64,000 nt of DNA from Candidatus Baltobacteraceae bacterium (lineage in GTDB: Bacteria > Vulcanimicrobiota > Vulcanimicrobiia > Vulcanimicrobiales > Vulcanimicrobiaceae), in the NCBI GenBank assembly GCA_035502855.1, contig DATJTX010000031.1, positions 186,001-250,000 of the forward strand, read 5' to 3'. A model generated the notes under the pieces. It ran no database searches, was not told where the DNA came from, and saw only the letters and a list, made by a program, of their open reading frames with translations. Shown here piece after piece: positions 49,886 through 53,961 of the stretch. Position 1 is the first letter of the stretch. Every line of letters begins with the position of its first letter. The translations under genes and the position numbers were made by a program.

Positions 49886-50260
49886 ATGAAGCGGTTTTAC
49901 GTTTACATGCTACAGTGTGCCGACGATTCATTCTACGTCGGGATCACCAGCAAACTGGAGGAGCGTCTCGGGCAGCACGATTACGGCTGGGACGAACGCT
50001 GCTATACGTTCAAACGGCGGCCGTTACGCTGCGTCCACATTTCGGAATTTGCAACGTTTGACGACGCCGTCGCGTGGGAGAAGCATCTCAAGGGTTGGAG
50101 CCGCGCGAAAAAGCGCGCATTGGTAAATGGCGACTGGGGAGAAGTGCGGCGACTTGCAAAGCGTCCTTCTCGTTCCTTCTCGTCCTTCTCGTCCTTCGAG
50201 GCTCGGTCGCTGTGCGACCGAGCACCTCAGGATGACGGAAGCGAACGCACCTCAGGATGA
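49886..50260 (+). CDS. Small GIY-YIG nuclease-domain protein
   Basis: 124 residues. The GIY-YIG domain occupies about 1-85 (FYVYMLQCADDSFYVGIT, where VYM and YVG are the two signature strands, R in EERLGQH, and the conserved E of AVAWEKHLKGW). The C-terminal 35 residues (RSFSSFSSFEARSL ...) are encoded by the flanking palindromic repeat rather than by family sequence. Related to the single-domain YhbQ-like group. The gene is framed by repeat arrays facing each other. Confidence 0.9.
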   Translation: MKRFYVYMLQCADDSFYVGITSKLEERLGQHDYGWDERCYTFKRRPLRCVHISEFATFDDAVAWEKHLKGWSRAKKRALVNGDWGEVRRLAKRPSRSFSSFSSFEARSLCDRAPQDDGSERTSG

Positions 50261-50323
50261 CGGAGGCGAATGCACCTCAGCCCTTCGAGGCTCGCTTCGC
50301 TCGCACCTCAGGATGACGCCTAG
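50150..50323 (-). repeat. Right repeat array, inverted relative to the left one
   Basis: CTCGTCCTTCTCGTCCTTC stretches lead into CCTTCGAGGCTCGGTCGC, a loop, GCACCTCAGGATGACGG, then two partial copies and a last full unit (CCCTTCGAGGCTCGC ... GCACCTCAGGATGACG, 50279-50319). The orientation is the reverse complement of the array at 49654-49845. Confidence 0.85.
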
Positions 50324-52959
50324 CTAAACAGGGCGCGGCGCTGGCGTTCGAGTTCGACCGTCGAGGTCGCCGCGGAGCGGCTATCCTGGACGTGCGATTC
50401 GACCAATGCGGCCATCTGTGAGTAATCGCCGTACATCGCGTAGGCGCGGCGGGCTTCGTCGTTGGCCGCGTCTTCGGCCTGTTCGAGCGTAAACTGAGCC
50501 GAGCTGGCAAATTGCTCGATGCGCCCGAAGGCTTCTTGCGCCATGCGCGCCTGGCGCGCGCTGTGTTCGGCTTTGGCGACGCCGTTTTCGATTGCGACGC
50601 CGGCAGCCTTGCCGCGCGATTCCAGATCGCTGAGCACCTTGCGAATGTCGAGCGTCGAGGCTTTGGTCTTGTCGGCCAAGCCTCGCACCTCGCCGGCGAC
50701 GACGTTGAAGCCCTTGCCGTGATCGCCGGCGCGGGCGGCTTCGATCGCCGCGTTGAGCGCGAGTAGATTCGTCTTGTCGGAAACCGAGCGAACGAGGTTG
50801 ATGATGTTGAAGATCTGGTGCATCGACTTTGCGAATTGATCGAGCGCGCTGCGGCTCTGGACTGCCATCGCGGAGAGCACGTTGATCGTTTCGATCAACT
50901 CGCCGACCGTGTCGCGCATGATGCGCACCTGCGGTGCGACCTGCTCGAACCGCTCACCGAGCGCCTGAAAATCTTTGCCGAGCTGCTCGTTCGAGGAGCT
51001 CAGCCCCATCGATTCTTGCGAGAGCTGGTTGAGGCTGGCGATCTGCGAGCGTGATTGCGTCCTGATCGTGTCGCCGGTCGCGCGCACCGAGTTGACGGAG
51101 CGGTCGATCGACTCGACGATGTCGTTGAGGGTGAAGCCGTGCGTCGGCCCGCCGGCAAGATTGATGCGCGGCCGCCAGCTCTCCAAATTGCGGTTGAGCA
51201 GCAGGCGGAAGACGTCGGTGGGGAAGAGCGGCTCCATTCGTTCCCACACGAACCGGGCGGCCTTGACGAAATCTTCCCGTTCGTCCGGCGCGAGTTCGTG
51301 GACTTCGAGATTCTTGCGCAGCTCGGCGAGCGCGTGCGCCTCGTCTTCGGTCGCGATGCGCCGGTGATACTCGGTCGCCTCTTTGAAGGCGAGTTCGATG
51401 ATCGCGCGATCCTCCTCGGACAGCGAGCGCCAGCGCTCGACGTTGCCGAGCACGATCTGCGTGTTGTAGGTGTGCGCGGTCAGCGACAGGTAGCGCTGGA
51501 ATTCGTTGAGCCGCGCGCCCAGCGTGTTTGCGAGCGGGTTCTCCTGCGCGTCCACCTCGTGATTCTGAAGCGAACGGTAGAGATCTTGGAATGGAATCAC
51601 CTTTGGTGAAGCCCCGAGCGCGTGCATCAGCGCGAGGTAGACCACGGAGTCTTGGATGCGCACCCGCATCTTGCGCATGTCGGCCGGACGCCGGATCGGA
51701 TGCAAGTTGTTGGTGAAGTGTCGCATCCCGTTTTCGAAATACGCCAGGCCGTGCAAACCGAACGATTCGAACGAGGTCAGGATATGCCGGCCGAGATGGC
51801 TGTCGAGCAGCCGGTAGGCCGCGTCGCGGTCGGCGAACACGAACGGAAGATCGAGCAGTTGCGCGAGCGGCAGCAGCGCGCCTGCAACGTAGGTGGTGAC
51901 GCTCACCATGTCAAGCTCGCCCGAGCGAACGCGCAGCATCGCTTCCATTTCACTGCCGCCGGCGAACGGAATCTCGAGCTCGAACGTGAGCCGCCCGCTC
52001 GAAAGCTCGAGCGTGCGCTTCGCGACGTATTCCCACGCGCGCGACGGCGGATAGCCGAGCGGAAGCAGCGTCGCGACTTTGATCGTGGTGTGATCGGCCT
52101 TCGGCGCCGTGCGCGAGCGCGAGATGTATTCGATCTCCGCGCCGTAGTAGGCCAGGCGCTGCGTTGCAAAGGCGGATTCGAGCGCTTCGCGACCCTGCGC
52201 GGCCGCGACGTTCGCCAGTCCGTCGGTGGCCTTGCGCATCGCCTCCGCCGCCAGGCTGTGATTGCGTCCGCTGACCACCGCCCGATCGATGGTCACGGAC
52301 AGGTCGGCGGCAAGTTCGGCGATCTCGGCCAGCGACGTGCGTGCGACTTCAGCGAGCGGCGCCGATTCGGCGGAGCGTTCGGCGTTGGCGCGGACGGAGC
52401 GAATCGTTGCCTCGGCTTCGCGCTGGATCTCCAGCACGAGGGTCTTGATCGCCGAAGTCGATTCGTTGGTCGTCTTTGCCAACCGTCCGACCTCGCCGGC
52501 GACGACGGCGAATCCCAATCCATGCGTTCCGGCGCGCGCGGCCTCGATTGCGGCGTTGAGCGCGAGCAGCTGCGTTTCGTCGCTGACGTCTTCGACGAAC
52601 TCGGTCATGCGCCCGATCTCGCTCATGAGCCGGCCGAAGTTGTCCATCGCGGTAGCGGTGTCGGCCGAAAGCTCCGCGAGCTGCTGCACCGAGGTGAGTA
52701 AATTCTCGACGACTTCGAACGAGTTGCCCAAGTCGGAGGCGGCGGCTCGCGCCGAAGCTTGCGCGGTTTGCAGGCGCTCGGCGGTCTCACGCGAGGCAGC
52801 GGCAAGGGTGCCGGCGGTATCGGAAAGCGCGACCATGAGCGTGGTCTGTTCCTGCGCGGTCGCCGCGATCGCTTCGGAGGCGCGCCGAACGTCCTCGACC
52901 GCCTTGGAGACGCTCGCATTGAATCGGTCGAAGAGCGCGTCCTCGCGTTCGGAGATCAT
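50320..52959 (-). CDS. Soluble chemoreceptor with MCP-DctP-MCP architecture
   Basis: 879 residues without signal peptide or membrane helix. Residues about 1-280 form a coiled-coil MCP signalling domain with hairpin tip [19 protein letters not shown] (about 131-149). About 291-590 is a TRAP-type DctP solute-binding domain ([14 protein letters not shown] at its start, the ligand Arg region [11 protein letters not shown], and a [10 protein letters not shown] motif). About 600-879 is a second MCP domain with tip [17 protein letters not shown] (near 737). DctP proteins normally act in the periplasm, so a cytoplasmic ligand sensor for organic acids is inferred. Its stop lies at the edge of the repeat array. 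Confidence 0.85.
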
Positions 52960-52962
52960 GAT

Positions 52963-53233
52963 TTCGAGCTATTCGACGGACCGAGGAACCACCCATACGC
53001 CGCGTAGCCACGATAATGCGGTTGCGGACCGAAGCTGCGCCCCACCGAAAAGAGCAGCGCGTGGATTTCACCCAGGGAGTGGATGTAGCCCAAACCGACA
53101 TCCGACTGCTGATAGTCATCGTGTGGGGTGGTTCGGGTCAACTCCATGCCAATAGTATCGTCCGCGGCTAGCGGATACATAGCCGCTAGGCCGGCCTGCC
53201 AATCGCCCGGGCCGGTCGCATCGCGTCCGACGC
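52963..53233 (-). pseudogene. C-terminal remnant of an outer-membrane beta-barrel protein
   Basis: In one frame up to the in-frame TAG near 53234-53239 the sequence reads strand-like segments GPGDWQAGLAAMYPLAADD, IGMELTRTTP, VGLGYIHSLG, HALLFSVGRSF and YRGYAAYGWFL, the pattern of the last strands of a barrel. No start or signal peptide remains. A short ORF from ATG 53180 exists but is unlikely to be functional. Lies between the chemoreceptor and a PAP2-like gene. Confidence 0.45.
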
Positions 53234-53316
53234 CGGGCTACGCCGGTCGCGAAGGTCACCTACGGATAGAGGGAGACCTGCGGCGCGTGCGCGCCCTCCG
53301 CTGCGCGCGTTCGGGC

Positions 53317-53961
53317 TCAGATCGCGACCGGCGCGCCGACGTGAAAGAGATGGAAGAAGAGCGCAGTCGAGAGCGTCGCCAAGACGGCGCCGGCAAGGAC
53401 TTGCAGCAGCGTATGCGCTTTGAGATAGACGCGCGCCCAGCACACCATCGGAATCAGGACGAGAAACGGTAGCGTCTGGCTGCCGTAGAGCAGCGTGAGG
53501 GCAACCAGCGGGGCGGTGATGCCGATCGCGTGCGTGCTGATTTTCCAATACCGCGTGATGTACTGCACGATCAGGGTCGAGAGGGTATAGGCCGCCATCG
53601 CCGCGATCATCAGGCGCGGCGCATGAATGACCCACATCACCACCGTGCCGGCAAGATAGAACACGACGAAAGCGCTGAAGACCGCCTCGCGTTCGTGCCG
53701 CACCGACATGTCAAGATCCGAGATGCGATCGCTTCCGTAGAGCCAGAAGACGTACATCATCGGCCCGATCGAGGTGAAGAACGTAGAGATGAAGAGCAGC
53801 CACCAGAAGTCCAGCTCGTTGCGCGCGCTCGCATGGGCAAGGATTACGAAGAGGGCCAGCGCGGTAAGAAATGGATTGAAGATCGTCGAGAGGATGCGCG
53901 CGAGGTCGCGCCAGGCCCGCCGATTCTTGATCGGAACGATCTCTTGGAGCGGATCGTGCAT
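53317..53961 (-). CDS. PAP2-like membrane protein
   Basis: 214 residues, about six helices. The second and third phosphatase motifs are recognisable (STHAIGI, ARVYLKAHTLLQ), but the first is only a RHERE and the Asp after the final His is replaced by Gln, so lipid-phosphatase activity is doubtful. TAATCT lies 9 bases before the ATG and no Shine-Dalgarno site is seen. Divergent from dxs. Confidence 0.7.
   Translation of the reverse strand: MHDPLQEIVPIKNRRAWRDLARILSTIFNPFLTALALFVILAHASARNELDFWWLLFISTFFTSIGPMMYVFWLYGSDRISDLDMSVRHEREAVFSAFVVFYLAGTVVMWVIHAPRLMIAAMAAYTLSTLIVQYITRYWKISTHAIGITAPLVALTLLYGSQTLPFLVLIPMVCWARVYLKAHTLLQVLAGAVLATLSTALFFHLFHVGAPVAI

Follow-up and report, generated by a model that had tools for sequence, protein, structure and literature searches.

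What could a chemoreceptor achieve with a solute-binding domain of the TRAP transporter type set between two signalling hairpins, and where in the cell would it work? The question is raised by a gene for an 879-residue protein in the stretch of DNA analysed here (64,000 nucleotides, hereafter the window), which comes from an uncultured soil bacterium of the Eremiobacterota with a genome of 3.33 Mb that is 96.6% complete. The original prediction, made from the letters of the window, was of a cytoplasmic receptor that senses organic acids and might bridge two chemosensory arrays or form an unusual trimer arrangement. We find that the domain order and the soluble state hold, that the protein belongs to a conserved family, and that its two hairpins differ in a fixed manner at their tips, a difference that speaks against bridging.

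Domain order, soluble state and genomic setting

The receptor frame is on the minus strand, from an ATG at 52959 to a stop codon at 50320-50322, and contains no internal stops (Table 1). Pfam places DctP at residues 305-575 (E 1.5e-66, model positions 11-282 of 286) and MCPsignal (PF00015) in two stretches, each above the cut-off (E 6.7e-53 for the whole protein), and the middle region also exceeds the NCBIfam cut-off for TIGR00787 (DctP subunit) and matches PDB 4p47 by sequence (E 3e-49). An AlphaFold2 model based on 27 aligned sequences (mean pLDDT 83, pTM 0.61) has long helices at 2-142 and 144-284 (hairpin 1) and at 611-743 and 745-864 (hairpin 2), with an alpha/beta DctP fold at 292-588 whose best counterpart among solved TRAP binding proteins is again 4p47 (target-normalised TM-score 0.90, rmsd 1.7). 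A DctP-like domain flanked on both sides by complete MCP hairpins, as originally proposed, is thus borne out by Pfam, by the modelled fold and by the match to 4p47. Aligned with each other, the two hairpins show no gaps, stay 601 residues apart throughout and share one register around the tip, and their arms are therefore equal in length, at about 131-142 residues from the tip or some 19-20 heptads.

Table 1. Receptor gene, its parts and the neighbouring gene, in positions of the window
Feature	Position	Strand	Basis
MCP-DctP-MCP chemoreceptor gene, whole, 879 aa	50320..52959	-	Single open frame; Pfam DctP and two MCPsignal stretches; 22 other full-length copies
MCP hairpin 1, residues 8-284, tip E139	52108..52938	-	MCPsignal; two long modelled helices; gap-free across aligned copies and against the hairpin of single-hairpin relatives
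Altered hairpin-1 tip: Q130, L148, G158 (Tsr N376, R394, R404)	52486..52572	-	Tip alignment, 17 distinct tips
DctP (TRAP solute-binding) sensor domain, residues 292-588	51196..52086	-	PF03480; TIGR00787; PDB 4p47 by sequence and fold
R413 and R434 of the DctP domain, putative carboxylate holders	51658..51723	-	Invariant in 27 aligned copies; Arg also in 4p47
MCP hairpin 2, residues 609-879, tip E740, K749 and R759 kept (Tsr R394, R404)	50323..51135	-	MCPsignal; modelled helices; 19/19 distinct tips
PAP2-like gene (named by inspection)	53317..53961	-	Upstream, same direction as the receptor; often adjacent in relatives (synteny in L001, L006, L007, L008, L020)

A hydropathy scan of 19-residue stretches found no membrane helix in the receptor, the maximum being 1.76 at residue 358, within the DctP fold. 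Upstream of the ATG the frame stays open for just three codons, and this closure together with the low hydropathy means that no N-terminal membrane anchor or signal peptide has been missed, in agreement with the earlier claim that the protein lacks both. As there is no membrane helix and CheA and CheW reside in the cytoplasm, both hairpins and the DctP domain must be cytoplasmic too, which supports the idea of a receptor that works inside the cell and carries a TRAP-type carboxylate-binding domain flanked by two complete hairpins. Consensus methylation sites are absent under the strict definition, and three relaxed matches occur, two of them inside the hairpins. The PAP2-like gene is separated from the receptor gene by 357 bases (52960-53316), compared with a few bases in the relatives L006, L007 and L008. 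Directly after the receptor's stop codon, positions 50240-50319 hold a short repeated sequence (TCATCCTGAGGTGCG...) that resembles an intergenic repeat element. No plasmid record gave a match covering 80% of the query.

The host genome places the receptor in a small chemotaxis system. Three proteins carry MCPsignal, namely the receptor and a pair of membrane MCPs (705 and 571 residues), and CheW domains occur only twice, in one CheA (661 residues) and in one single-domain CheW (169 residues; contig C34), so that the search for cheA and cheW suggested by the original prediction returned one of each. The neighbours of cheA, read from the frames by inspection, form a flagellar cluster with fliR, flhB, flhA, a PilZ-like protein, cheY and cheC; CheR and CheB are also present, side by side on another contig. 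The two membrane MCPs measure 228 and 198 residues from tip to C-terminus, and since the receptor's arms are shorter than these it is uncertain whether it would share a mixed array with them.

The receptor's DctP domain is the only one in the host genome, in which no DctM permease was found. The same holds more widely: in our phylum sample of 149 genomes, those with a double receptor outside genus g37 have one DctP match each and no full-length DctM, the sole exception being a marginal DctM match of 22 bits in G084. As the only DctP in these genomes, with no full-length DctM, the domain is, on genomic evidence, no longer able to serve a TRAP transporter in these bacteria. It has the full fold and the conserved arginines of the DctP/SiaP-type solute-binding proteins (PF03480, TIGR00787; closest solved structure 4p47), but differs from them in having no export signal (its N-terminus is not hydrophobic) and no permease in the genome, and in being fused within a chemoreceptor. 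Membrane receptors can be stimulated by separate periplasmic solute-binding proteins (review PMC9602780); there, as here, a solute-binding protein feeds signalling, but in the window receptor it is covalently attached and cytoplasmic rather than separate and periplasmic.

A conserved family and its single-hairpin relatives

A search for the same domain order in other genomes returned 22 further full-length copies of the double receptor and two fragmented ones, 54-88% identical to the window protein and all from Eremiobacterota MAGs or MAGs placed beside Eremiobacterota. Many copies share their neighbours, with a PAP2-like gene upstream and murI downstream. The original prediction had itself raised the danger that the frame might be an assembly fusion of separate genes. 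We found no point in favour of an assembly or gene-fusion artefact, or of a degenerate gene, and the 22 full-length copies in independent MAGs, at these identities, with the same junctions and under strong constraint, refute the idea and leave it practically no chance of being correct. Constraint is unevenly spread over the protein: across 19 copies, pairwise identity averages 0.69 for the DctP domain, 0.89 for the hairpin-1 tip, 0.82 for the hairpin-2 tip and about 0.3 for the two linkers, making the hairpin-1 tip the most conserved part of the receptor.

Genus g37 has shorter proteins (L058-L061) composed of one hairpin followed by DctP, with both domains confirmed by domain search in L058 and L060; a further one from another family of the same order (L062) is a fragment of this kind, ended by a contig edge. 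These are likewise cytoplasmic MCP-DctP receptors, homologous to the window protein over about 560 residues of hairpin 1 and DctP (the hairpin of L058 aligns with hairpin 1 without gaps over 260 residues), and their DctP domains fall in one clade with those of the double receptors; they differ from it in having a single hairpin and a canonical tip (N376, R394, R404). In a maximum-likelihood tree all MCP-fused DctP domains form one group (99/96), separate from 26 free-standing DctP proteins, which indicates that MCP and DctP were probably fused once within the sampled set. The group divides into a double clade (99/98) and a single clade (100/98) that are sisters, an arrangement compatible with gain as well as with loss of the second hairpin. 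A BLAST comparison of hairpin 2 with other MCPs gave no clear candidate for its donor.

Asymmetry of the two tips

Aligned without gaps to the full-length Tsr of the PDB, residues 113-176 of hairpin 1 correspond to Tsr 359-422 and residues 709-778 of hairpin 2 to Tsr 354-423, which places E139 and E740 at Tsr E385, the centre of each tip. Core-complex simulations for E. coli identify three strong receptor contacts with CheW (E402, R404 and R394), which are made by the outer subunit of each dimer (PMC6954272), and Tsr R394 also touches CheA, since its cysteine replacement crosslinks to P3 and P4 (PMC6746300). It is at these positions that the two hairpins part. All 17 distinct tips of hairpin 1 carry leucine at 394 and glycine at 404, with Q or E at 376, whereas the 19 of hairpin 2 all have K or R at 394 and R at 404; E402 is kept in both. 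R394 and R404 are found in the four complete tips of the single-hairpin relatives, and 41 distinct tips from other MCPs of the same bacterial family are nearly uniform (N376 in 41/41, R394 in 40/41, E402 in 41/41 and R404 in 41/41). Because nearly all other MCPs are canonical, the altered tip of hairpin 1 is probably the derived state.

We considered hairpin 1 as a decaying copy and rejected this, as its tip is more conserved than that of hairpin 2, with 52 of 71 positions invariant (89% mean identity) against 45 of 71 (82%). From the pattern of substitutions the tip is altered in a fixed manner and maintained, without decay. The positions usually listed as trimer contacts in Tsr are 377, 380, 381, 385, 388 and 398; all are identical in the two hairpins, and hairpin 1 is ordinary there. 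R404 also forms an inter-receptor salt bridge with E402 (PMC6746300, PMC6954272), so that losing it may have consequences for trimers in addition to CheW.

The survey of tips turned up several other unusual MCPs. The only other tip seen with L at Tsr 394 (HGLGF) is that of a 687-residue MCP (L142:1411-3471, G034), in which R404 is kept. L097, L098 and L099 (G098, G056 and G117) have tips close to those of E. coli MCPs and unlike the rest of the family, which suggests horizontal transfer or contamination. Two MCPs of G125 lie in very long frames of 1475 and 1374 residues (L127:661-5085 and L128:613-4734), with their tips far towards the C-terminus.

Two-hairpin receptors as such are known. DosM of Vibrio cholerae (VC1403) has two signalling hairpins and spans two CheA/CheW layers, or baseplates (PMC7534058), which corrects the earlier view of known MCPs as having a single signalling hairpin; 98% of its homologues are without a sensory domain, and the F9 arrays use triple CheW (PMC9321776). 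DosM and the window receptor are both soluble MCPs with two hairpins per chain, but DosM-type receptors are mostly sensor-less and work with triple CheW in double-layer arrays, while the window receptor has DctP between its hairpins, a single-domain CheW in its genome and the full set of CheW-contact residues in hairpin 2 only. We rejected membership of the DosM/F9 group on the absence of a triple-domain CheW (CheW3) from the host genome in the CheW-domain search, and the loss of R394 and R404 from the hairpin-1 tip is further evidence in the same direction.

The receptor could nonetheless act as DosM does, as a homodimeric rod with a hairpin at either end and DctP in the middle, so as to link two layers of CheA/CheW within a sandwich array in the cytoplasm. 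Its solubility and its two complete hairpins of equal length would suit this arrangement, for which DosM itself is the precedent. The bridging of two arrays envisaged by the original prediction is disfavoured, however, since two of the three CheW-contact residues are gone from hairpin 1 in every copy and kept in hairpin 2. In the same bacterial family, a soluble DosM-like MCP with two hairpins and no sensor domain (L126:985-3372, minus strand, a 796-residue frame on contig C242 of G124) has both tips canonical, and the triple CheW used by F9 arrays has no counterpart in a host whose CheW domains are confined to CheA and one single-domain protein. We consider such a bridge quite unlikely.

Likely ligand and a proposed model for signalling

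R413 and R434 of the DctP domain are unchanged in every one of the 27 single and double copies aligned, and 4p47 also has arginine at the matching positions. SiaP and other TRAP binding proteins use an arginine of this kind to bind the carboxylate of the ligand, and we take R413 and R434 to be the arginines that hold it here. These correspondences make an organic acid, probably a carboxylate, the likely ligand of the receptor.

We propose an asymmetric cytoplasmic organic-acid receptor in which hairpin 2 engages CheW and CheA, with hairpin 1 as a structural partner that may pair with it within the chain; we give this reading about an even chance of being right. The protein would be a soluble receptor of the flagellar chemosensory system, its DctP domain, separated from any transporter, monitoring an organic acid in the cytoplasm. 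The DctP cleft would close on the carboxylate, with R413 and R434 as the likely clamp, and closure would shift the bases of the two hairpins, which are joined to its N and C ends, against each other. The signal would then travel from the bases along the heptads of the arms to the tips, where hairpin 2, with its ordinary tip, would alone dock on CheW and CheA, and hairpin 1 would fill the inner, trimer-facing place in the receptor dimer as partner hairpin. The unusual trimer arrangement that had been suggested as an alternative to bridging may apply, and is close to this reading.

In the simplest case hairpin 1 would pair with hairpin 2 of the same chain, one polypeptide making one asymmetric receptor dimer. 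Such pairing is possible because the hairpins have the same register around their tips and both their bases are attached to one DctP domain. That a single chain provides a CheW-facing hairpin and a trimer-facing one, each held to its place by evolution and separated from the other by a cytoplasmic clamp of transporter type, is a tentative proposal for which we see a real but lesser chance. In one subgroup hairpin 2 has an extra, inserted residue close to its base that slightly breaks the symmetry, and this counts against our favoured model, as does the equal length of the hairpins, which would also suit a homodimer with two parallel pairs of hairpins. In that homodimer, hairpin 1 would lie beside hairpin 1' and hairpin 2 beside 2', and the whole would occupy two of a trimer's three dimer positions, just one of which would touch CheW and CheA. 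Shared length and register fit this arrangement, and the evidence of the tips serves it as well as it serves the favoured model, but a DctP dimer would have to keep two bundles parallel and correctly spaced, and we think it unlikely.

Hairpin 1 might instead be a regulatory or decoy element that enters mixed trimers with the membrane MCPs through its kept trimer residues and, being without CheW contacts, lowers kinase output. Tsr E402 and R404 are known to stabilise CheA-ON (PMC6954272), and the commonly listed trimer contacts are ordinary in hairpin 1, both of which are compatible with such a role; the arm lengths are unlike those of the membrane MCPs, and we regard it as very doubtful.

Our results identify a new variant of the double-hairpin chemoreceptor, one with a transporter-derived sensor. 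The original claim of novelty stands for this DctP-sensor variant and falls for two-hairpin receptors that bridge baseplates, which DosM already represents; in the open-access literature we found no paper describing a DctP-type chemoreceptor or this route to a sensor domain. By that route a TRAP solute-binding protein has parted from both its transporter and the periplasm and turned into a cytoplasmic sensor, which points to one way in which new sensor domains arise. The dimers of chemotaxis arrays consist of identical subunits in unequal places, one facing CheW and CheA and the other the trimer axis, and the contribution of each place is hard to study as a result. If our favoured model is true, the inner/outer asymmetry that ordinary receptor dimers assume only upon assembly is here written into the gene, and in a receptor whose hairpins are not interchangeable either hairpin could be mutated alone.
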